Source: a virus. From it: a stretch of DNA of 39,898 nt. The notes under the pieces were generated by a model. That model ran no database searches, had not been told where the DNA came from, and saw only the letters and a program-made list of their open reading frames with translations. Each line of letters opens with the position of its first letter. The stretch's first letter is position 1. The position numbers and the translations under genes were made by a program. The stretch spans positions 1 through 39,898 of IMG/VR virus record IMGVR_UViG_3300032296_000754, one strand, 5' to 3'. This document shows, in pieces, positions 3,389 through 39,898 of the stretch.

Positions 3389-3540
3389 ATCATTTCTTTC
3401 CACTGCCAGTTCGCCCAGTGCCGCATTTCGTCATTCGACCATTGATGCTTCTGCCACTTTTTTAACAGTTCTGCTTTGTTTATGCTACCATGTTTGTGTC
3501 GCATCAGATCAGTTAAAAAATCTGTGGCAGTTAGCTTCAT
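3385..3540 (-). CDS. Hypothetical protein, 51 aa
   Basis: ATG 3540 overlaps the stop of the DnaA-like gene (ATGA), and the gene ends with the same kind of overlap. The product is basic and strikingly rich in Trp, His and Lys (ELLKKWQKHQWSNDEMRHW). It may be a small nucleic-acid-binding protein. I do not recognise the family. Confidence 0.65.
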   Translation of the reverse strand: MKLTATDFLTDLMRHKHGSINKAELLKKWQKHQWSNDEMRHWANWQWKEMI

Positions 3541-3833
3541 TGCTTTTGCGCCATTATCTTTAACGAGTGAACAATGGTGCTGTGGTCGCGGTTCATAATA
3601 CGGCCAATTTCGGTGGTGGAATATCCCTTTTCGCGCAGCATTACAGCGCACTTGCGGCGGATTTCGACCAACTTTCTGCAACGATTTTTGCCTATTATGT
3701 CTTCAGCGGTATAGTCATATTCTTTAGCAATATCATTCATAGCGATCATATTGGCTTGCCTAGGCGTCATGCCACGGCTGTCAAAAAGCACTACTTGATC
3801 TTCTTCATCCCACATAAAATCATCATCAAACAT
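3537..3833 (-). CDS. DnaA domain IV-like DNA-binding protein, 98 aa
   Basis: Residues 28-95 match the C-terminal DNA-binding domain of bacterial DnaA: IAKEYDYTAEDIIGKNRCRKLVEIR, then a helix-turn-helix ending in the signature GRIMNRDHSTIVHSLK at 77-92. DnaA uses this RDHST loop to contact DnaA boxes. The ATPase domain is absent and the first 25 residues are acidic. It lies in the replication segment beside MazG-like and P-like genes, with AAGGAAG before ATG 3833. It may mark the phage origin or compete with host DnaA; which of these is inference. Confidence 0.8.
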   Translation of the reverse strand: MFDDDFMWDEEDQVVLFDSRGMTPRQANMIAMNDIAKEYDYTAEDIIGKNRCRKLVEIRRKCAVMLREKGYSTTEIGRIMNRDHSTIVHSLKIMAQKQ

Positions 3834-4128
3834 CGTTTTCTTCCTTTACAAAAATACCGTCTACCATGCGGCCCTTACGGTCTTTGATCTGATGCCAAGC
3901 GTGAACGACGCATTCCTCAATCTCCAAATCCTTTTGCGCAGCCATAATGGTAAGCACCACAAAGGCATCTCCGATGCTGTCCATGAATTGCTCATCCTTG
4001 CCCTTGGCGATGGCTTCGGCCAGTTCACCTATCTCTTCAATCAGCTTTACGAATTGGGCTTGCACAGTGCTGCCAGCAATCAGGTTGCGTTCTTCTGCCC
4101 ATTGGCGAATTGAGTTTCCGTAAATCAT
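3826..4128 (-). CDS. MazG-like nucleotide pyrophosphohydrolase
   Basis: The 100-residue protein carries the MazG-type metal-binding pattern: EEIGELAEA at 31-39 (E-E-x2-E) and DSIGDAF at 50-56 (D-x3-D). This all-alpha family hydrolyses nucleoside triphosphates, including abnormal or regulatory nucleotides, to monophosphates and pyrophosphate. Phage versions are thought to protect nucleotide pools or lower stress nucleotides. The start shares bases with the P-like gene stop (TAATG), so the two are co-translated. Length fits the short single-domain form. Confidence 0.8.
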   Translation of the reverse strand: MIYGNSIRQWAEERNLIAGSTVQAQFVKLIEEIGELAEAIAKGKDEQFMDSIGDAFVVLTIMAAQKDLEIEECVVHAWHQIKDRKGRMVDGIFVKEENDV

Positions 4129-4670
4129 TAGTTCATTTCCTCTTTGGTTTTGAGTGATTGTATTAATTCAGCATTCAGTGCGGCCAACTCCTCAGCCGTC
4201 ACATATTCCTGTGGTGGCTTGTAATCTCGGCGGTGTATCATCAAAAGGTATTCCGCCCTGGCTAACTTGCGTCTGCGGTCCCTGCCTTCTTCCTGTAAAA
4301 CCGAATCTATCTCCGCAGGGGTCGGCATAAACTTGCAAGTCCGAAGCAGTTTGAGAAACGCACTGCGTAGATCGACCACTGGGTAAATGCGAAGGGTCAT
4401 CCAGTAAAGTTCCAGCCGCTCTGCCTCTTCGTCCTGACTGCGCTTTTGGCTGGCAGTGGCAAGTGCCAGTTTCGCAATCATTACCTCGACCTGTTCGCGC
4501 TCAGGCATTGGTGGCCGTGGGGCATCCACATACTGTTGCAAGATTTCAGCAGACTTAGGACCAATCGTCGGCAAATCGCTCCCCATCAGCAGATCGTTTA
4601 GCTTGGCTGGCAAGGACGGCTCTGACCATTGGGTTAGTTGGCTCTGCTGCGTTTTGGCTATTTCCTGCAC
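4128..4670 (-). CDS. Lambda P-like replication protein (helicase loader role)
   Basis: The 180-residue product follows the O-like gene and overlaps its 3' end by 116 bases in another frame. GTG 4670 has AAAGG nine bases upstream. The N-terminal part (LTQWSEPSLPAKLNDLLMG) is flexible; residues 90-125 include LRIYPVVDLRSAFLKLLRTCKFMPTPAEI, a pattern typical of phage P-like replication proteins, followed by basic helices. By position and pattern it should bring the host replicative helicase to the origin. No ATPase motif is visible, so it is P-like rather than DnaC-like. Confidence 0.65.
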   Translation of the reverse strand: MQEIAKTQQSQLTQWSEPSLPAKLNDLLMGSDLPTIGPKSAEILQQYVDAPRPPMPEREQVEVMIAKLALATASQKRSQDEEAERLELYWMTLRIYPVVDLRSAFLKLLRTCKFMPTPAEIDSVLQEEGRDRRRKLARAEYLLMIHRRDYKPPQEYVTAEELAALNAELIQSLKTKEEMN

Positions 4671-5250
4671 TCGTATTACCTTTCGGTTCGTAAATATCCA
4701 GCCAGCCGTTTATCGTTGATCGGTCTAGTAGGTCTTCAATGTCATGGCCTTTGGATCGTATGGCATCCAGTTTATTGATAGCCCTTGCGGTTGCCCTGTC
4801 AGTTAATGGTCGCTTGCGTTTCTTACGCATCTCCACCCATCCGTTCCAAGCATCCATTGGCAGCCAATCTGGAAGGCCTATTATATCATTGGTGGTTAAT
4901 TGATGTGTAATTGATGTATTGGGTGCATCTGATGCACGGGTCCCATGCACTTCATGCACGGGGGGGGTGTCTTTAATGCACGGGTGCATATGATGCACGG
5001 GTATCTGTATCCAATACTTATTGCCCTTACCGATAACTTCTTCACGGCGAATAAATTGCATTTCCTCAAGCGACCTAATCGCCAGTTGGACTGCCCTTTT
5101 TTTCAATGATGATTTTTTTGCGACGCGCTCAATAGAAGGCCAACACAAGCCTTCGTCATTTGCCCAATCAGCCAAAGCCAGCAAAACAAGTTTTTGCGTC
5201 GATGATAGGTCTTCCCTATCCCATACTGCTGTCATGATTTTAATGCTCAT
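4555..5250 (-). CDS. Lambda O-like replication initiator
   Basis: Residues 1-80 form a winged helix-turn-helix of the HTH_36 kind (LSSTQKLVLLALADWANDEG, then SIERVAKKSSLKKRAVQLAIR). A His-rich hinge follows, and then a C-terminal domain with WNGWVEMRKKRKRPLT and DLLDRSTINGWLDIYEP, typical of phage O-like or DnaD-like replication proteins. The hinge is encoded by the iteron block at 4921-5005, as in lambda O and its origin. The gene starts from ATG 5250, coupled to a 16-residue leader. Its probable job is to bind the iterons and recruit the P-like protein. Confidence 0.8.
   Translation of the reverse strand: MSIKIMTAVWDREDLSSTQKLVLLALADWANDEGLCWPSIERVAKKSSLKKRAVQLAIRSLEEMQFIRREEVIGKGNKYWIQIPVHHMHPCIKDTPPVHEVHGTRASDAPNTSITHQLTTNDIIGLPDWLPMDAWNGWVEMRKKRKRPLTDRATARAINKLDAIRSKGHDIEDLLDRSTINGWLDIYEPKGNTSAGNSQNAAEPTNPMVRAVLASQAKRSADGERFADDWS
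4921..5005. repeat. Iterons inside the O-like gene: candidate replication origin
   Basis: ATGCACGGG occurs at 4932, 4954, 4976 and 4993, spaced 22, 22 and 17 bp. Two copies are extended into inverted repeats: GTGCATC-T-GATGCAC at 4924-4938 and GTGCAT-ATG-ATGCAC at 4985-4999. The block encodes the hinge of the O-like protein. Lambda carries its origin iterons at this same place in O, so origin function is a well-founded inference. Confidence 0.75.
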
Positions 5251-5390: not shown

Positions 5391-5744
5391 CTACTTTGTT
5401 TGCCGAAAGTCGATTGTCGGAAACAGGGCTTTGAACAATGCCTTGCGTAACGTGAAGTCTGGGGTAATCATGCCCTTTACATCTTCGACGCAATCCTGGC
5501 CGTTTTGTGTGTAGGAAAAGTCTGGCTTATATCCAACGCGCCGCCCGTTATCGTGCTTCATCTGACTGCCATTTACGACAAACCAGAATTGCGGGTGGAT
5601 CACTAAGTCAGCAATCACACCAGCAGCCCATAAAACGTGCAGTTCATCACACCTTGCAGCTTCGCGCTTGCTGTCGTGCTTGTGGCACTGGGTGCAATAC
5701 GCTTTCTTGGCATTGAACTTTGACCGACGATTAAACAGCGCCAT
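5391..5744 (-). CDS. DUF1064 family nuclease
   Basis: The 117-residue protein shows the DUF1064 layout: FNAKKA near the N-terminus, HDSKREAARCDEL at about 28-40, VGYKPDFSYTQNGQDCVEDVKG at about 72-93 and then LRKALFKALFP. The acidic D ... E-D-V-K-G pattern is that of a PD-(D/E)xK-like nuclease fold. Phage members are thought to cut DNA during recombination or packaging. ATG 5744 is preferred to an upstream TTG; it overlaps the regulator gene by 14 bases. Confidence 0.8.
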   Translation of the reverse strand: MALFNRRSKFNAKKAYCTQCHKHDSKREAARCDELHVLWAAGVIADLVIHPQFWFVVNGSQMKHDNGRRVGYKPDFSYTQNGQDCVEDVKGMITPDFTLRKALFKALFPTIDFRQTK

Positions 5745-6063: not shown

Positions 6064-6636
6064 GTGAGCGACGACAAAATCTGCGCTGCGTATGTTGCAG
6101 CATTTGCAGAGTTGGAGGCGGCAACAAAAACCGCCAACAACCCACATTTCAAATCTAAATACGCTGATCTCCCGACAGTGATTGATGCTATCAAGCCGCA
6201 CCTGTCAAAGCATGGCCTTGCATTTATGCAGATGCCCAAGCCAAGCGAAGGCGGCATATCAATCGAAACTGTCCTGATACACAGTAGCGGCGACAAGTTG
6301 TCGATGGGTGTATTGTTTGTGCCAGCTAATAAGCACGATGCACATGGTTATGGATCGGCTTTAACTTATGCGCGTCGATATGCACTGCAAACTTGCTTTG
6401 GTTTGCCAACAGAAGATGACGATGGCAACGCAGCGGTCAAATCGCAGCAGCCAGCAGCAGCAAAGCCTATCACGCAGGAACAGTTTGCTGTGTTGCAAGA
6501 CCTTATCGACCGCACAGGCACTGACGTAGCTGTCATGGCAGCGCATTACAAAGTGCCAGCAATAGCAATGCTTCCATCCACTGCATTTGAAACAGCAAAG
6601 TCGGCATTGGAAAGGAAGCTGCAAAATGCGAGTTGA
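6064..6636 (+). CDS. erf: ERF family single-strand annealing protein
   Basis: The 190-residue protein has the ERF pattern: AYVAAFAELEAATKTANNPHF, KYADLPTVIDAIKPHLSKHGL, then HAHGYGSALTYARRYAL-like residues at about 100-115. ERF proteins pair complementary single strands in phage recombination and help circularise or concatenate the genome. GTG 6064 has AAGGAGA seven to eight bases upstream. It is the first gene of the right operon and is followed by the exonuclease that would supply its single-stranded substrate. Confidence 0.85.
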   Translation: MSDDKICAAYVAAFAELEAATKTANNPHFKSKYADLPTVIDAIKPHLSKHGLAFMQMPKPSEGGISIETVLIHSSGDKLSMGVLFVPANKHDAHGYGSALTYARRYALQTCFGLPTEDDDGNAAVKSQQPAAAKPITQEQFAVLQDLIDRTGTDVAVMAAHYKVPAIAMLPSTAFETAKSALERKLQNAS

Positions 6637-7282
6637 TGTCGAACAGCGCAGTGAAGATTGGTATACTGCGCGATGCGGTTCTCTGGGGGCGTCACAGGTT
6701 GCTGACGCCCTATCCCGCACCAAAAGCGGTTACAGCGCCACCAGAACAAACTTGCGTGTCAAGCTGGCTCTGGAGCGGCTCACAGGCAAGCAAGCGGCTG
6801 GGTTCACCAGTGCAGCAATGCAGCATGGCATAGACACCGAAGCTGAAGCCAAAATAGCCTATTCGTTTGAACAGAACGTAACGGTTACCGAAACAGGGCT
6901 TGTCAGACATTCAAGCATCCCGTGGACGCACTGTTCGCCTGATGGTCTTGTTGGTGATGATGGGCTTGTAGAAATCAAGTGCCGCCAACCAGCGGGTCAC
7001 CTTGAAACGCTAACGTCAGGCGAAATACCATCGCAGTATGTTACGCAAATCAACTGGCAACTTGCTTGTATGCCAGAACGCCAATGGGTTGATTACGTTT
7101 GTTACAACCCAGACTTTCCTGAAGAACTGAAACTTTTCATCAAAAGGCACTATCGAAATGACGAACAAATCTTGGAATTGGAAAAATCTGTTTGCGAATT
7201 TCTTTCAGAAGTCGAAGCCGATCTCGAAACCATTAACGGCATTAGAAGAAGGGTACAGACTGGCGAAACTATCATCCGATAA
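6626..7282 (+). CDS. YqaJ-like viral recombination exonuclease
   Basis: Start ATG 6626 overlaps the ERF stop by eleven bases. The 218-residue protein begins with RSEDWYTARCGSLGASQVAD (a YqaJ hallmark) and has HGIDTEAEA at 68-76, CSPDGLV at 103-109 and LVEIKCR at 114-120, giving the D ... E-x-K metal site at D106, E116 and K118, then YVTQINWQLA at 138-147. Family members resemble lambda exonuclease and degrade dsDNA ends 5' to 3'. With ERF it forms a two-component recombinase. Confidence 0.9.
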   Translation: MRVDVEQRSEDWYTARCGSLGASQVADALSRTKSGYSATRTNLRVKLALERLTGKQAAGFTSAAMQHGIDTEAEAKIAYSFEQNVTVTETGLVRHSSIPWTHCSPDGLVGDDGLVEIKCRQPAGHLETLTSGEIPSQYVTQINWQLACMPERQWVDYVCYNPDFPEELKLFIKRHYRNDEQILELEKSVCEFLSEVEADLETINGIRRRVQTGETIIR

Positions 7283-7538
7283 ACAAGGCCTGGAATGGAA
7301 TGCGTTGGCTTACCAAGCCTATGTAGAACACGCCCGTCGGCATAGGTTCTTTACTACCGAAGATGTGCGCAGAGAGGCAAAGAACGTCCCTGCGGCCACA
7401 AACAACAGCGCCTGGGGGCATATAGCAAAGACGGCTAGTAACAATGGTATTATGATGGAATTTGAAACCATGCGGTCAAAAAGCCCATCTACGCACGGAC
7501 GGCATATTATCATCTGGAAATCGATGTTGCTGCCATGA
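7158..7538 (+). CDS. Hypothetical phage protein, up to 126 aa
   Basis: The well-behaved part begins near residue 29 (LEEGYRLAKLSSDKQG) and continues with FTTEDVRREA, NNSAWGHIAKTA and SPSTHGRHIIIW. This resembles a recurrent small phage protein next to recombination genes that I cannot name. The first 28 residues overlap the exonuclease C-terminus in another frame. ATG 7158 is the only ordinary start before the conserved part, with a weak AAAAGG site, so the true start is uncertain. Confidence 0.6.
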   Translation: MTNKSWNWKNLFANFFQKSKPISKPLTALEEGYRLAKLSSDKQGLEWNALAYQAYVEHARRHRFFTTEDVRREAKNVPAATNNSAWGHIAKTASNNGIMMEFETMRSKSPSTHGRHIIIWKSMLLP

Positions 7539-7876
7539 TGTTACCGCGCAAGATACCAAAAGAGGCAAAGCGTCAGAGCAGATGGAAGTCGCCAGCGCAT
7601 TGCAATTTTGTCAGGGGCCATGCCTGTTCCATATGCGATAGCATGGCAGGGATCGAAGTTGCCCATATCCGCTATGGCAGCGGTGCTGGCATGGGGCAAA
7701 AGCCGCACGATTGGTTTACTGTAAGCCTGTGCAAACAATGCCATACGAACCAGCACAGCGTCGGTGAGCGCACGTTCTGGGCAACCTATAACATCAACCC
7801 GTTTGCACTGGCTGAAGCGTTTGCAAAGGCCAGCCCAAAGGCAGCGGAGATCGCCGCCAAGAAAAAGGAGATATAG
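7535..7876 (+). CDS. HNH-like nuclease, DUF968-type, 113 aa
   Basis: The protein has CSIC at 31-34, AHIRYG at about 43-48, GMGQKPHDWFTVSLC and CKQCHTNQHSVGERTFW. The paired cysteines plus A-H-I-R and C-H ... Q-H positions match the zinc-bound HNH nucleases of the DUF968/recombination class found in phage ninR-like regions. It starts at ATGATG overlapping the previous stop (ATGA) and lies among recombination genes. A role in trimming recombination intermediates is inferred. Confidence 0.75.
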   Translation: MMLPRKIPKEAKRQSRWKSPAHCNFVRGHACSICDSMAGIEVAHIRYGSGAGMGQKPHDWFTVSLCKQCHTNQHSVGERTFWATYNINPFALAEAFAKASPKAAEIAAKKKEI

Positions 7877-7878
7877 TT

Positions 7879-8523
7879 ATGCAAACTAATGTTATGACCG
7901 AGAAAAAACAACGCAAGCCAATGTCTGCTGAACATAAAGCCAAAATTGCGGCTGCTCATCGCGCAAAGTTTGCTGATCCAGAATATGGAGCAATGCACAA
8001 AGCAAGGATGGTTGCGGGAATTAAAAAGTGGCATTCTAATCCTAAAAATGCGGCAAAATTTGCACAGCGTGTAAGTGAGCGGATGAAAAAGCGCCACGCC
8101 GAAGATGATTGGAAAGCAGAAGGTGGAAGGTCTGGAATTTCAAGCCGAGCTATCAAGAAAACACTGGAAGCGCATAAGGAAATGTTTAGAAAATTAGCCA
8201 AAGACCGATATGACGCTGGCCTTGGTATAAACTCCGATGCAGCAAAATCTGCCAAGGTAGCTGCTGGCAAATGGATAATGAAAGCGGCCCTTGCTGCCTT
8301 GCATTCGGAAACAAATTACAATGAAGTCTACAGAGATACACATCTTAGGTTACGCCGCGAAATGCCATACGACGGCCCTAGTGATCATGCTGATTATTAC
8401 GAATACATAAAAAAGCTAGGAACTGCGACAGTCAATAGCCCCGAATGTAGGAAACTGTCAGATGAGTTCATGCGGGTTGCAATACCTAGATTTGCAAAAA
8501 AATGGCATGAGCAAAAAATATGA
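7879..8523 (+). CDS. NUMOD3-like DNA-binding protein lacking a nuclease domain
   Basis: The first 80 residues hold NUMOD3-type segments (PMSAEHKAKIAAAHRAKF, then MVAGIKKWHSNPKNAAK and VSERMKKRHAED) as found in the DNA-binding tails of phage homing endonucleases. I see no GIY-YIG, HNH or LAGLIDADG motif in the rest, which is helical and basic. AAGGAG lies eight bases before ATG 7879. It could be the remnant of a homing endonuclease or a domesticated DNA-binding protein. It sits between the HNH and NinB genes with ATGA coupling to NinB. Confidence 0.6.
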   Translation: MQTNVMTEKKQRKPMSAEHKAKIAAAHRAKFADPEYGAMHKARMVAGIKKWHSNPKNAAKFAQRVSERMKKRHAEDDWKAEGGRSGISSRAIKKTLEAHKEMFRKLAKDRYDAGLGINSDAAKSAKVAAGKWIMKAALAALHSETNYNEVYRDTHLRLRREMPYDGPSDHADYYEYIKKLGTATVNSPECRKLSDEFMRVAIPRFAKKWHEQKI

Positions 8524-8900
8524 CGCAGACCGTCTGGCTTCGCGGCGAACATCAAAGGCGATTGGCTCACCAGTTAATCGACAAAGCGCCACAGGATGCA
8601 GTCGTTAAGATCAGCGCAGCCAAGCGCAGTGACGATCAAAATGCAAAAATGTGGGCCATGCTGTCCGACATCAGTCGGGCTGCACCAGAGGATCGGCATC
8701 ACATACCAGAAGTCTGGAAGTGCATATTTATGGCAGCATTGGGGCATGAAGTTATGTTCACAATGGGCTTAAACAATCAGCCTTTCCCCATAGGCTTTAA
8801 GACATCGAAGCTAAACAAGACCCAGATGTCGGACCTGATTGAATTTATATATGCGTATGGGGCGCAAAATAATGTGAAATGGAGTGAGAAATATGAGTGA
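8520..8900 (+). CDS. ninB: NinB-like recombination protein
   Basis: The 126-residue product has the NinB order: a short basic N-terminus (RGEHQRRLAHQLID), KISAAKRSDDQNAKMWAMLSDIS, then EVWKCIFMAALGHEVMF and LIEFIYAYGAQNNVKW. NinB (lambda Orf) is a recombination mediator that binds single-stranded DNA and SSB and helps load annealing proteins. ATG 8520 overlaps the upstream stop (ATGA). The SSB gene lies two genes downstream. Confidence 0.85.
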   Translation: MTQTVWLRGEHQRRLAHQLIDKAPQDAVVKISAAKRSDDQNAKMWAMLSDISRAAPEDRHHIPEVWKCIFMAALGHEVMFTMGLNNQPFPIGFKTSKLNKTQMSDLIEFIYAYGAQNNVKWSEKYE

Positions 8901-9126
8901 ACCACACAGCGAACAGCTTCGTCTTTTGATTGAGCGTATCGAACGGCTGAACGAAGATAAAAAAGGCATCCAGGATGACATCCGCGATGTTTATAATGAA
9001 GCTAAGGCGCATGGTTACGACACCAAAATTGTTCGCGCAGTGATCCGCCTTCGTGCAATGGAAGCAAATGACCGCGCAGAATATCAGGCAGTACTAGACA
9101 CATACATGACCGCTCTTGGTCTATAA
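8893..9126 (+). CDS. DUF2312/GapR-like nucleoid protein
   Basis: ATG 8893 has GGAG eight bases upstream and overlaps the NinB stop. The 77-residue protein has the family signature: EQLRLLIERIERLNEDKKGIQDDIRDVYNEAKAHGYD, then VIRLRAMEANDRAEYQAVLDTYMTALG. In Caulobacter, GapR binds overtwisted AT-rich DNA and supports replication forks. The family is characteristic of Alphaproteobacteria, which is the main host clue here. In the phage it may relieve or mark supercoiling during replication or recombination. Confidence 0.85.
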   Translation: MSEPHSEQLRLLIERIERLNEDKKGIQDDIRDVYNEAKAHGYDTKIVRAVIRLRAMEANDRAEYQAVLDTYMTALGL

Positions 9127-9138
9127 AAGGAAACAGCA

Positions 9139-9519
9139 ATGCAGAATATCACAATATCAGGAAACGTCGGCAAGGATGCTGAATTGCGCACAGTGCGAGA
9201 TACCCAAGTCCTCAGCTTCAACGTCGGCGTCAAGAACGGATTTGGCAGAGATGCTGGCAGCGTTTGGTATCGTTGCAGCTTGTGGGGCAAGGCAGCGGAA
9301 GCGTTTTCTGGCAGCATCAAGAAAGGCACTAAGGTCTTTATCACAGGCGAACTGACGCACGACGAATATGAAGGCAAGCCGCAGTTCAATGTGCGCGTTG
9401 GCAGCATCGATACAGGCCCACGCCCACAAGGCCAATCTGATGATGATTCACAAGTCCAAGCTGATGGCGGTTCGCATACCACTTGGGACAATGACCTTGA
9501 GGATGATTGTCCATTTTAG
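9139..9519 (+). CDS. ssb: Single-stranded DNA-binding protein
   Basis: This 126-residue protein has a classic OB-fold SSB domain: ISGNVGKDAELR, VLSFNVGVKN, WYRCSLWGKAAEAF and VFITGELTHDEYEGKPQFNVRV. A short acidic tail ends in DDCPF, close to the usual DDDIPF partner-docking tip. AAGGA lies eight bases before ATG 9139. It should coat single strands and recruit replication and recombination partners. Confidence 0.92.
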   Translation: MQNITISGNVGKDAELRTVRDTQVLSFNVGVKNGFGRDAGSVWYRCSLWGKAAEAFSGSIKKGTKVFITGELTHDEYEGKPQFNVRVGSIDTGPRPQGQSDDDSQVQADGGSHTTWDNDLEDDCPF

Positions 9520-14410: not shown

Positions 14411-16297
14411 TTAATCCTTGACAGGGCGAAGCTCGACGTTTTCGGTCCACGCGGCGCGGGCTTCCTCACCAATCAAACCCAAGAATGGGCACGGTGTTCC
14501 GGCCATCTCCATTGCCCTAAAGACGCGAAAGTCTTGGCATAGGAGACTGACGGCGGCGACACGCATACCCATATCGTAAAGGGTCTTAGACAGCTTCATC
14601 CGTTCGCAGTTCTGGTCACGCACGGTGCGGCCAGCCGACAAGCCAATGATTTGCGTCTGCACTGCGCCAGACTGGCCAGTGGTGCATAGGTCTTGGCTGT
14701 AGGACATCATGCTTGGCGCGATGGCGCTCGGCGGTGGCGACTTGATGTTCTGGTCGATGACCTGACGCGATACGTTCTCGCTGTAGCTTTTGCTGTCAGA
14801 TACGTTGACGTTATTGTTCTGATTGACGTTGTTGCTGGTCTGGTTGACCGTGCTGTTGCTAGTTTCGTTCGTCGTATTGATGTTATTATTCGTGTTTTTA
14901 CTATCCACCGTGCTGTTTTGGTTGACGGTTTGGTTCACCGTGGATGTGCTGACATCGTTATTGAAATTGCGGTTTGTATTATCAGATGTGCTGTCAGAAG
15001 TGTTCTGGTTAATGTTGTTCATTGTGCCAGAGTTCACGTTGTAGTTCGTGTTGGTGCTGTTATTCGTATTTTGGTTTACGTTCGTAGCGTTTAACGTGTT
15101 CTGATTAATGTTCGTGACAGTACCAGAGTTGATATTCTGATTTACGTTATTGTTCGTATTCACGTTTGTGGCGTTCAACGTATTCTGGTTAATGTTAGTC
15201 ATAGTTCCAGAATTGATGTTCTGATTAACATTTGTGTTTGCGTTTGTGACGTTCGACGTGTTCTGGATGATCGACGTAACGGTTCCAGAGTTAATGTTCT
15301 GGTTGACATTGTTGTTGGTATTTACGTTTGTGGACGTGCTAGTGTTTACGTTCGTATTATTGGCGCTCGACGTGCTTTGATTAATGTTGGTCATTGTGCC
15401 AGAATTGATGTTCTGGTTGACGTTCGTGTTAGTATTATTCGATGTGTTCTGATTAATGTTAGTCATAGTTCCAGAATTAATGTTCTGGTTCACGTTATTG
15501 TTCGTGTTTACATTTGTGGAATTAGACGTGTTCTGATTGATGTTAGTCATCGTCCCAGAATTGATGTTTTGGTTCACGTTTGTATTGGTGTTATTTGATG
15601 TGTTTTGGTTAATATTAGTCATCGTCCCAGAGTTTATATTCTGGTTGACGTTGTTGTTAGTGTTTAAGTTCGTGGAACTTGAAGTATTTTGATTTACGTT
15701 TGTGCTGGTGCTTACGTTTGTGTTGGTGTTGTTCGATGTACTTTGGTTAATATTAGTCATTGTTCCAGAGTTTATATTCTGGTTCACGTTATTGTTAGTA
15801 TTTATGTTAGTGGAACTGGACGTGTTTTGATTGATATTCGTCATCGTTCCAGAGTTGATGTTTGTATTGGTGCTGGTAGAATTTAACGTGTTTTGATTGA
15901 TATTTGTCATTGTCCCAGAATTTATGTTCTGATTGACGTTTGTGCTAGTTGATGTGTTCTGGTTTACGTTCGTACTGGTGTTTACGTTCGTGTTGGTGTT
16001 CACATTAGTAGCGTTGGACGTGTTCTGGTTAATGTTTGTAACCGTTCCAGAATTGATATTCTGGTTTACATTATTGTTAGTGTTTACATTTGTGCTGGTT
16101 GATGTGCTGGTAGACGTGTTATTATTCTGGTTTACGTTCGTGTTAGTGGACGTGCTGGTAGACGTATTAGTATTATCTGTCGTGCTGTTGGTTGTCGTAT
16201 TATATATGTATTCCGTCGGCGCTGTGGATGTGGCCTGTGCCAACACCATCGACGATGACGCAATTAACGAGATAAAACCCAGCACAAATTTTTTCAT
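14411..16297 (-). CDS. Secreted Asn/Thr-repeat protein, 628 aa
   Basis: A clear signal peptide (MKKFVLGFISLIASSSMVLA, cleavage before Q21) is followed by about 430 residues of almost only Asn, Thr, Ser, Val, Ile, Gln and Gly. The motif INSGTMTNINQ recurs twelve times with small changes, in units of about 20-35 residues. A C-terminal domain of about 110 residues has four cysteines (QDLC, QNCERM, LLCQDF, GTPCPF) and looks globular. The composition suggests a repetitive beta structure or an adhesive fibre. ATGA overlap with the upstream gene shows co-translation. I do not recognise the family. Confidence 0.75.
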   Translation of the reverse strand: MKKFVLGFISLIASSSMVLAQATSTAPTEYIYNTTTNSTTDNTNTSTSTSTNTNVNQNNNTSTSTSTSTNVNTNNNVNQNINSGTVTNINQNTSNATNVNTNTNVNTSTNVNQNTSTSTNVNQNINSGTMTNINQNTLNSTSTNTNINSGTMTNINQNTSSSTNINTNNNVNQNINSGTMTNINQSTSNNTNTNVSTSTNVNQNTSSSTNLNTNNNVNQNINSGTMTNINQNTSNNTNTNVNQNINSGTMTNINQNTSNSTNVNTNNNVNQNINSGTMTNINQNTSNNTNTNVNQNINSGTMTNINQSTSSANNTNVNTSTSTNVNTNNNVNQNINSGTVTSIIQNTSNVTNANTNVNQNINSGTMTNINQNTLNATNVNTNNNVNQNINSGTVTNINQNTLNATNVNQNTNNSTNTNYNVNSGTMNNINQNTSDSTSDNTNRNFNNDVSTSTVNQTVNQNSTVDSKNTNNNINTTNETSNSTVNQTSNNVNQNNNVNVSDSKSYSENVSRQVIDQNIKSPPPSAIAPSMMSYSQDLCTTGQSGAVQTQIIGLSAGRTVRDQNCERMKLSKTLYDMGMRVAAVSLLCQDFRVFRAMEMAGTPCPFLGLIGEEARAAWTENVELRPVKD

Positions 16298-19202: not shown

Positions 19203-19203
<1 letters not shown>
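18553..19203 (-). CDS. Fibre-associated beta-rich (lectin-like) protein, 216 aa
   Basis: ATG 19203 shares bases with the stop of the collagen-like gene (TAATG). The product has jelly-roll-like strands: YEYLFQTS-type segments, SDYFITMHLWHEPSLNRTRARV, LNDWTLSGTQIG and a final NFQTLRVTKL. This resembles concanavalin-like domains in phage fibres, but I cannot name the family. It lies directly after the large fibre gene. Confidence 0.6.
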
Positions 19204-22394
<3,191 letters not shown>

Positions 22395-36471: not shown

Positions 36472-38328
36472 TCAGCGCCAGTTGTTAGCGAAACCGCCTC
36501 TACGAACAGCCTTTTTGCCAGCCGTTAAAGGATGGGGTTTATCAGCTTCTTCGACATTTGGCAATTTATGCTTTTCCATGTTAGCATAAAACTTACGGGC
36601 TACGCTATCCATATTTACATTTAGGATTGTAAGTGCAGCAATTGCGTACACTCTAACGTCCAAAGCTTCGTTTCTTGTTCGCGTTTTAACCCAAACTCGC
36701 GACGGAAAACCTTTGTGGTATTTAATCATCTGCTTTTCAGCAGTTAGCTGCTTAAAATACTCGTCATCCCGCTTGGCAGGGAAGTGACAATAGCCTGGGC
36801 CAGCCTCATCCATCTTGAGGCGTGAGTAATGGACCTCTTTTGCCGTATCAACACCAATGGGATAAAGCGGAACCCTGCCAATGTTGTTCTTGGATGGACG
36901 CCCGACAATCGGTTTACCCTCGCCGCCAACACCCTTGATGGCAAAAACCCTATGTCCGGCGCGTGTCTTGGCATAATTGTAAACGGCCCGTGTGTGGTGT
37001 CCGCCAGTATCGATACAGGTGGCACGGACAAGCATTGGCTCACCACACGGATGCTCATAGGTCGCCAGCAAGACCTCATCGACCTTGTGCCATAGCTGTG
37101 TGGTGGACGGGTCGCCGTAAATTACATGGTAATCGATCTGCCAGCTTTCTTCGCCAGCGCCCCAGCCCACAATCTCGACTTCGACGCGGTCATCCTGAAC
37201 GTCGGCTCCAGCCGTCAGCAGCACCACCTCATCAGGGATGCCTTCGTAATCTTCCTTACGCTGCGCCACAGCATAATCATCCACACCCTCGCCAGCATCT
37301 TCCCATGTCTCGCCAAGGAAGGTGTTTACAAAGGTCTTGAGCCGCATTGGGTTCTTCCGCGCCGCCAAAAACTCCTCGATTGCGTCGGATAACACTGACC
37401 ACGGTGAGTAAAGTGCGTTCAGATGGAACCCTGCCACACCGTTGAACGGGGCAAAAGCCACCCATTCACCATTGCGAACAGCCCTGTGCCGATCCGTATC
37501 TGACCAGACAGAGCCACATTCAGCGCAGTGATAAGCGCCAGTGCTGGGATTATCGTCAGTCCAAGTCACGTTCGACCACGCCAAGACCTGTTTGTGTCCG
37601 CATTGATGGCACGGAACCATAAACTTGCGCTGGTCGCTTTCGTTATAGGCCGACTCAATTCGGCTCCCACCCTTATTCGTAGGCGTGGATACTAGAATGA
37701 TCTTCCTGTTCCAGAACGTAGCGGCTCTTCGTTTGGCAAGAGATATAGGATCGCCTTCTTCACCAGCAGAAGGAGGGTATCGATCAACTTCATCGCAAAG
37801 AACAACACGAATCGGGCGAGAAGCAAGGGAACTAGGAGAATTAGCGCCGACAAGAGAAAGAGCGCCACCGGGAAAAACTTTATGAAGCGTAGTGTTGTTT
37901 GCATCTTTGGCCTTACTGTCTTTAACCTTGTCCCGAAGGCAAGGGGTTGAGCGTAACAGACCCGCTGTCACACGGTCCTTACTGAAGCTCTGCGCCATAT
38001 CCACGGTTGGCTGCATCATCAGAATAGGCGCAGGATCGTGGGCCATGTGGTATCCAATGGTGTTTAGCAGCATCTCAGACTTGCCAAGCTGCGCACCGCA
38101 CATCACCACAACCTCTTTGACCAGCGGATCAGAGCAAGCATCCATAATCCCGCGCTGGTACTCAGCCCTTGATGTCACCCATCGACCAGGCTCAGAACTA
38201 CTCTGCGAATCCAGCCGCCGTTCATGGTCGGCCCACTGCGCCACACTCATACGCGGAGGCGGCGTCATCTGCTTCATGGCCTTGGCCATTTGCTCCAGTG
38301 CGGATTCTCTGGTGGCTTGTTCGATCAT
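36472..38328 (-). CDS. Terminase large subunit (lambda GpA type)
   Basis: The 618-residue protein carries an ATPase with a Walker A-like GAQLGKSE at 78-85, Walker B VVLCDEVD at 175-182, and coupling motif STPTNKG at 214-220. A zinc-like pair CHQC (240-243) and CAEC (268-271) follows. The nuclease domain has acidic residues D376 (GADVQDDR) and D440 (CIDTGGHHT). GpA-type terminases cut cos and drive packaging. The start overlaps the small subunit stop (ATGA). Confidence 0.93.
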   Translation of the reverse strand: MIEQATRESALEQMAKAMKQMTPPPRMSVAQWADHERRLDSQSSSEPGRWVTSRAEYQRGIMDACSDPLVKEVVVMCGAQLGKSEMLLNTIGYHMAHDPAPILMMQPTVDMAQSFSKDRVTAGLLRSTPCLRDKVKDSKAKDANNTTLHKVFPGGALSLVGANSPSSLASRPIRVVLCDEVDRYPPSAGEEGDPISLAKRRAATFWNRKIILVSTPTNKGGSRIESAYNESDQRKFMVPCHQCGHKQVLAWSNVTWTDDNPSTGAYHCAECGSVWSDTDRHRAVRNGEWVAFAPFNGVAGFHLNALYSPWSVLSDAIEEFLAARKNPMRLKTFVNTFLGETWEDAGEGVDDYAVAQRKEDYEGIPDEVVLLTAGADVQDDRVEVEIVGWGAGEESWQIDYHVIYGDPSTTQLWHKVDEVLLATYEHPCGEPMLVRATCIDTGGHHTRAVYNYAKTRAGHRVFAIKGVGGEGKPIVGRPSKNNIGRVPLYPIGVDTAKEVHYSRLKMDEAGPGYCHFPAKRDDEYFKQLTAEKQMIKYHKGFPSRVWVKTRTRNEALDVRVYAIAALTILNVNMDSVARKFYANMEKHKLPNVEEADKPHPLTAGKKAVRRGGFANNWR

Positions 38329-39886: not shown

Positions 39887-39898
39887 GCCGCTATTACC
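39887..39898. other. Right copy of putative cos end
   Basis: GCCGCTATTACC ends the window and is identical to 15-26. The two copies should be one 12-nt single-stranded overhang in the virion. The terminase and HNH genes begin within 80 bp, as expected next to cos. Confidence 0.75.

Follow-up and report, generated by a model that had tools for sequence, protein, structure and literature searches.

An origin embedded in the linker of its own initiator is textbook knowledge for phage lambda, and to our knowledge direct evidence for such origins is confined to a few model phages. In lambda, four 18-bp iterons lie inside the O gene, with starts 20, 24 and 23 bp apart. The lambda paradigm assigns DNA binding to the N-terminus of O and P binding to its C-terminus (PMC6022878). 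Repeats have already been noted within the O-like gene of Pseudomonas phage MD8, whose product has an HTH_36 domain (PMC8508860). Outside phages, the RepA_N initiator Rep of plasmid pSK41 has four initiator boxes centrally in rep, which encode the linker behind the N-terminal DNA-binding domain (PMC5703833).

The DNA analysed here, in the following called the window, is the 39,898-bp IMG/VR record IMGVR_UViG_3300032296_000754. Its first 26 positions hold an Illumina adapter remnant, CGCTCTTCCGATCT, and then 12 bases, GCCGCTATTACC, that are also its last 12 (39887–39898). This terminal repeat is compatible with a 12-nt cohesive end (cos) that was filled in, which would suit a gpA-type terminase. 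The terminase large subunit, of the gpA type (36472–38328, minus strand), has its closest counterparts in the Roseobacter phages CRP-8xx (62% identity), a hint that the host may be an alphaproteobacterium. The structural region encodes a 628-aa protein rich in NTN/TST repeats (14411–16297, minus strand) and a 1063-aa collagen-like (G-x-y) protein (19203–22394, minus strand), while a recombination cluster with genes for an Erf-like annealing protein, a YqaJ exonuclease, HNH/DUF968, NinB and SSB lies on the opposite strand (6064–9519, plus strand). In a non-exhaustive look, no ORF of the window resembled a replicative helicase or polymerase.

Judging from the sequence, DNA replication of this bacterial virus very probably begins at four repeats inside the initiator gene. 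We give a probability of about 0.87 to the reading that the array serves a tailed phage as its origin of replication and works like ori-lambda. Origins of this kind are already known; what appears to be new is a proposed family-wide grammar of the repeats and its relation to the recognition helix. The following features are referred to below:

4555–5250, minus strand: O-like replication initiator gene, 231 aa (HTH_36, PHROG 678, AF2 model)
5062–5100, minus strand: recognition helix, residues 51–63 (AF2 model)
4982–5001, minus strand: iteron 1, CCCGTGCATCATATGCACCC, with a perfect dyad core
4965–4984, minus strand: iteron 2, CCCGTGCATTAAAGACACCC, with a degenerate right half and a CCC flank common to iteron 1
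4943–4962, minus strand: iteron 3, CCCGTGCATGAAGTGCATGG, with a degenerate right half
4921–4940, minus strand: iteron 4, CCCGTGCATCAGATGCACCC, with a perfect dyad core
4879–4918, minus strand: putative DNA-unwinding element, the least stable 40 bp of the gene
4128–4586, minus strand: partner gene, 152 aa from the ATG at 4586 (180 aa from the GTG at 4670), the positional analogue of lambda P

The 9-mer ATGCACGGG occurs exactly four times in the window, at 4932, 4954, 4976 and 4993, all inside 4932–5001, and the distances between the starts are 22, 22 and 17 bp, as the first-pass annotation had stated. Dinucleotide shuffles contained a mean of 0.32 copies and never four. On the coding (minus) strand the repeat reads CCCGTGCAT and forms the left halves of four 20-bp units, which are dyads of ~20 bp spanning 4921–5001. 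Two copies had been described as extending to inverted repeats, and these were recovered as the perfect dyads TGCAT-N3-ATGCA of iterons 4 (GTGCATCTGATGCAC, 4923–4937) and 1 (GTGCATATGATGCAC, 4984–4998). The copies occupy codon frames 0, 2, 0 and 1 of the initiator gene, hence all three frames, so that they are repeats of the DNA and not of a peptide. In 20,000 synonymous-codon shuffles of the gene there were never more than three copies of ATGCACGGG, and any 9-mer present four times within 100 bp was found in 0 of 3000 such shuffles.

The initiator matches the HTH_36 profile (PF13730) with 53.2 bits (gathering cut-off 25) and, with its residues 1–202, PHROG 678, “replication initiation O-like” (E 3.3e-32), which lambda O matches too. 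There was no profile match at E 1 to Phage_rep_O (PF04492), for which lambda O itself scores 123 bits, and a PDB sequence search returned nothing useful. An AF2 model, built from an alignment of 19 sequences (mean pLDDT 65), consists of a confident winged helix (~1–83) that contains the recognition helix, a linker predicted to be disordered (86–123, pLDDT <50) and a helical C-terminal domain of moderate confidence (~120–178). Foldseek and VIA-align matched generic winged helices, mostly to residues 2–95; the top PDB row in Foldseek was 4pql, which we take to be the N-terminal domain of a RepA_N initiator, and generic winged helices were equal in score. The iterons encode residues 84–110 and the AT-rich block beside them residues ~111–124. 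Residues 84–103, PVHHMHPCIKDTPPVHEVHG, hold five histidines and fall largely into the predicted linker, which agrees with the His-rich hinge between two domains proposed in the annotation. This histidine content reads as a by-product of the TGCAT repeats, because relatives with other iterons have fewer histidines in the linker.

The AT-rich block starts right behind iteron 4, on the C-terminal side, and contains two copies of ATTGATGT. With 75% A+T and −43.9 kcal/mol it lies at the 99.86th percentile of the window, and the lambda counterpart has −42.95. Ten 40-bp stretches of the window are less stable, hence instability alone does not single out this block, and over 60 bp the flank of the iterons is unexceptional (98.5th percentile). 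The least stable block was found at the same position of the gene in 32 of 36 type-A genes.

Relatives of the initiator are the strongest evidence for reading the array as a candidate origin. We scanned IMG/VR twice, obtaining 58 and then 80 loci with many contigs common to both, and compared ~150 related genes overall; a scan of genome contigs added only one relative, a distant one in Castellaniella (L060). Hinge iterons are present in every type-A relative examined, and the array ends at nucleotide 328 of the gene, with no indel, in the window and in each of the 71 type-A loci whose hinge is complete. Synonymous divergence, counted among codons that keep their amino acid, amounts to 0.26–0.32 in the DNA-binding domain, 0.02–0.13 in the iterons and 0–0.024 in the AT-rich block, a 2- to 12-fold drop across the array, from which it follows that selection acts on the DNA.

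In the mechanism we propose, the winged helix at the N-terminus of the O-like protein would bind as a dimer to every one of the four 20-bp iterons, and its recognition helix would read the TGCAT half-sites. Assembly of an O-some on 4921–5001 would follow, the block at 4879–4918 would then be opened, and the C-terminal domain would recruit the product of the next gene, bringing the host DnaB helicase. With ori-lambda this locus shares four dyad iterons inside the initiator gene that encode its linker, an unstable AT-rich block on their C-terminal side, an N-terminal domain predicted to read the iterons and a C-terminal part matched to the next gene. It differs in the iteron sequence and in the spacing, 17-22-22 instead of 20-24-23. 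The annotation had called this a lambda-like origin in an O-like gene, with lambda's placement but another repeat sequence. The placement in the linker, the four dyads, the unstable block and the covariation support this view, with a qualification on the proteins: the DNA-binding domain is HTH_36 and not Phage_rep_O, and the partner shows no detectable homology to lambda P (PF06992). By anatomy and covariation the array thus reads as a lambda-type origin outside the lambda O and P families.

Several observations speak against a lambda-type reading. The starts of iterons 1 and 2 are 17 bp apart, or ~1.6 helical turns; this spacing is out of helical phase with the two of 22 bp, and none in lambda is as short; one half is degenerate in iterons 2 and 3; and a second repeat array exists at 2175–2291. 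The only feature in the detrended GC skew is a minimum at 5663, near a divergent gene boundary (~5.95–6.06 kb), and it can therefore be explained by gene-strand bias alone. The DnaA box TTWTNCACA is absent from the window (4.6 expected), so that no DnaA-dependent origin is visible with that pattern. Downstream of the initiator, a 98-aa protein with DnaA domain IV (Bac_DnaA_C, 46.9 bits) is encoded at 3537–3833 (minus strand), and it occurs in many relatives.

The Pseudomonas phages MD8 and phi2 have O-like initiators (HTH_36) with a homologous N-terminal domain, but they differ in the C-terminal region; the best PHROG of phi2 O is 391, and phi2 has a partner of the lambda P family. The partner product of the window had no Pfam match to Phage_lambda_P (PF06992) at E 1, and hhalign against the P proteins of lambda and phi2 gave 0.5% probability from shallow alignments. 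Because of this lack of detectable homology, we infer its function as a helicase (DnaB) loader from its position. The array could instead be an initiator-bound origin with another downstream mechanism, in which the partner is no DnaB loader and direct contacts with DnaB or primase may be made by the C-terminal domain itself, in the way that RepA_N plasmid initiators contact primase. We consider this possible though rather unlikely. Besides the missing P homology, the resemblance to RepA_N plasmids favours it, as these combine four Rep boxes centrally in rep with a primase interaction domain in Rep (PMC5703833). Both systems have boxes in the linker-coding part and a similar winged-helix fold, to which the 4pql match may be added. 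The RepA_N initiators belong to plasmids of Gram-positive hosts; the protein described here has no Pfam match to RepA_N, though 4pql is among the many winged-helix structures matched. Against this mechanism stands the covariation of the C-terminal tail with its neighbouring gene, an argument for a partner protein: behind T1 tails of O lies the partner gene of the window, behind T2 tails a different one, and T3 tails have others again, a pairing that mirrors the assignment of the lambda O C-terminus to P. The partner types P1 and P2/P3 may, on balance, be distantly related. Two other families of small partner genes, with a WFPT motif (L025, 4659–5165; L086, 3659–4165; L105, 1145–1636), take the place of the window's partner where O has another C-terminal tail, and are candidates for new helicase loaders.

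It appears improbable that the hinge repeats serve to autoregulate the initiator gene, as an operator or a transcription roadblock, while replication starts elsewhere, for instance at the CATACGATT array. Sites bound by an initiator often regulate its gene as well, as in iteron plasmids, and this counts for an operator. The CATACGATT array consists of four ~28-bp units in an intergenic region (2175–2291); the low-complexity gene at 14–16 kb aside, no further tight array besides this one and the hinge repeats exists in the window. Yet when the flanks of the relatives were searched for 10-mers occurring at least three times within 120 bp, all clusters lay in the O hinge except for the CATACGATT array of L030 (6617–6683), which has the corresponding place and is the only one in a relative, whereas the hinge iterons are found throughout type A. 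The array adjoins a promoter-like TATATATAA, which suggests operators, and the CATACGATT repeats are probably operators of the leftward early genes. An operator within the gene would also leave the conserved unstable block and the fixed register unexplained. The linker is rich in His and Pro and conserved in length, but the idea that selection on the protein favoured a recurring His/Pro peptide, and that the DNA repeats merely follow from it, is contradicted by the three frames and the synonymous shuffles, and both the constrained synonymous sites and a peptide that changes between iteron classes under an unchanged dyad layout speak against it.

Returning to the lambda-type reading, we compared the DNA-binding domains with the iterons they would recognize. 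The 25 distinct type-A N-termini fall into three iteron classes, TGCAT, TGAAC and TGACA (core triplets CAT, AAC and ACA). Residues 50, 51 and 56, which sit around the start of the recognition helix, each carry all information on the triplet class, with no exception among these 25, and residues 47, 53 and 57 track the class closely. The classes are also shared by divergent backgrounds (L092, L105 and L106). These patterns suggest that a few initiator residues decide which letters the repeats carry.

On the same C-terminal domain other N-termini were found, namely a divergent HTH_36 (type B), DUF1376 (type C) and one with no Pfam match (type D). The linker of most of these genes likewise holds repeats, which differ in sequence and are mostly spaced by 17 or 22 bp: GGAACAGTCCC at ~17 bp, CCAGTGG at ~22 bp together with AACCATAAACC, and TTGCC-N6-GGCAA at 22 bp. 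An AT-rich stretch stands behind them, although it is not the least stable of the gene in two of three type-B genes. The strict iteron pattern had no match in five type-D genes, though similar sequence is visible by eye. In a cross-table, C-terminal tail type and iteron class assort independently. This suggests that DNA-binding domain and iterons move as one module and C-terminal tail and partner gene as another, as judged from natural recombinants in a family that is distinct from lambda O and P.

Named phages with HTH_36 initiators (phi2, LESphi3, PotUPM1, CUB19, Itty13, VSN-002 and Microcystis phage Mvi-Yong1342-1) likewise have repeats in the hinge, flanked by C-rich sequence. We fixed the pattern CCC-N-YG-XYZ-N3-Z'Y'X'-CA-CCC before fetching 156 further loci and tested it with one flank letter fewer per side (CCnYG-XYZ-N3-Z'Y'X'-CACC). 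At least one match was present in 83 of 106 held-out genes and at least two in 79, noting that the queries used to retrieve these genes had contributed to the idea of the pattern, so that many of the genes are relatives of those queries. Over all genes, a set dominated by Pseudomonas-type RAVQ proteins, matches reach 10.9/kb in the hinges and 0.033/kb elsewhere in the same loci, a ~330-fold enrichment. By our own count, the R..Q pair of the helix is absent in 18 of the 23 held-out genes with no match and in 2 of the 83 with one. Triplet similarity followed helix similarity when the rest of the domain was held constant (partial Mantel r 0.58, p 0.0005; 25 clusters that are not fully independent) and background similarity given the helix with r 0.16. 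Phi2 follows the same 20-bp grammar with the triplets CAG/CAT.

It is therefore reasonably probable, in our estimate, that HTH_36 phage initiators share one 20-bp grammar in their own linker, in which the conserved R..Q of the helix reads the constant letters and residues 50, 51, 53 and 56 (numbering of this protein) set XYZ. The code proposed jointly with this grammar, and held with the same confidence, assigns mostly CAT/CAG/CAC to RAVQ, AAC to T[SET]R[GA]VQK, ACA/CCA to RSVQR and mostly AAG to SDRTxQ. As the helices SERSVQN and SERTVQM carry CA-type triplets, the code is partial, and many left and right triplets match only in part. In the open-access library searched, we found no report of the grammar or of the helix–triplet relation.

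The apparent helix-to-triplet rule makes initiator specificity accessible to simple binding assays. If it is true, specificity would be predictable from the helix and origins could be called in metagenomic phages, so that for many uncultured phages both the origin and the replication specificity group would be readable straight from the sequence.
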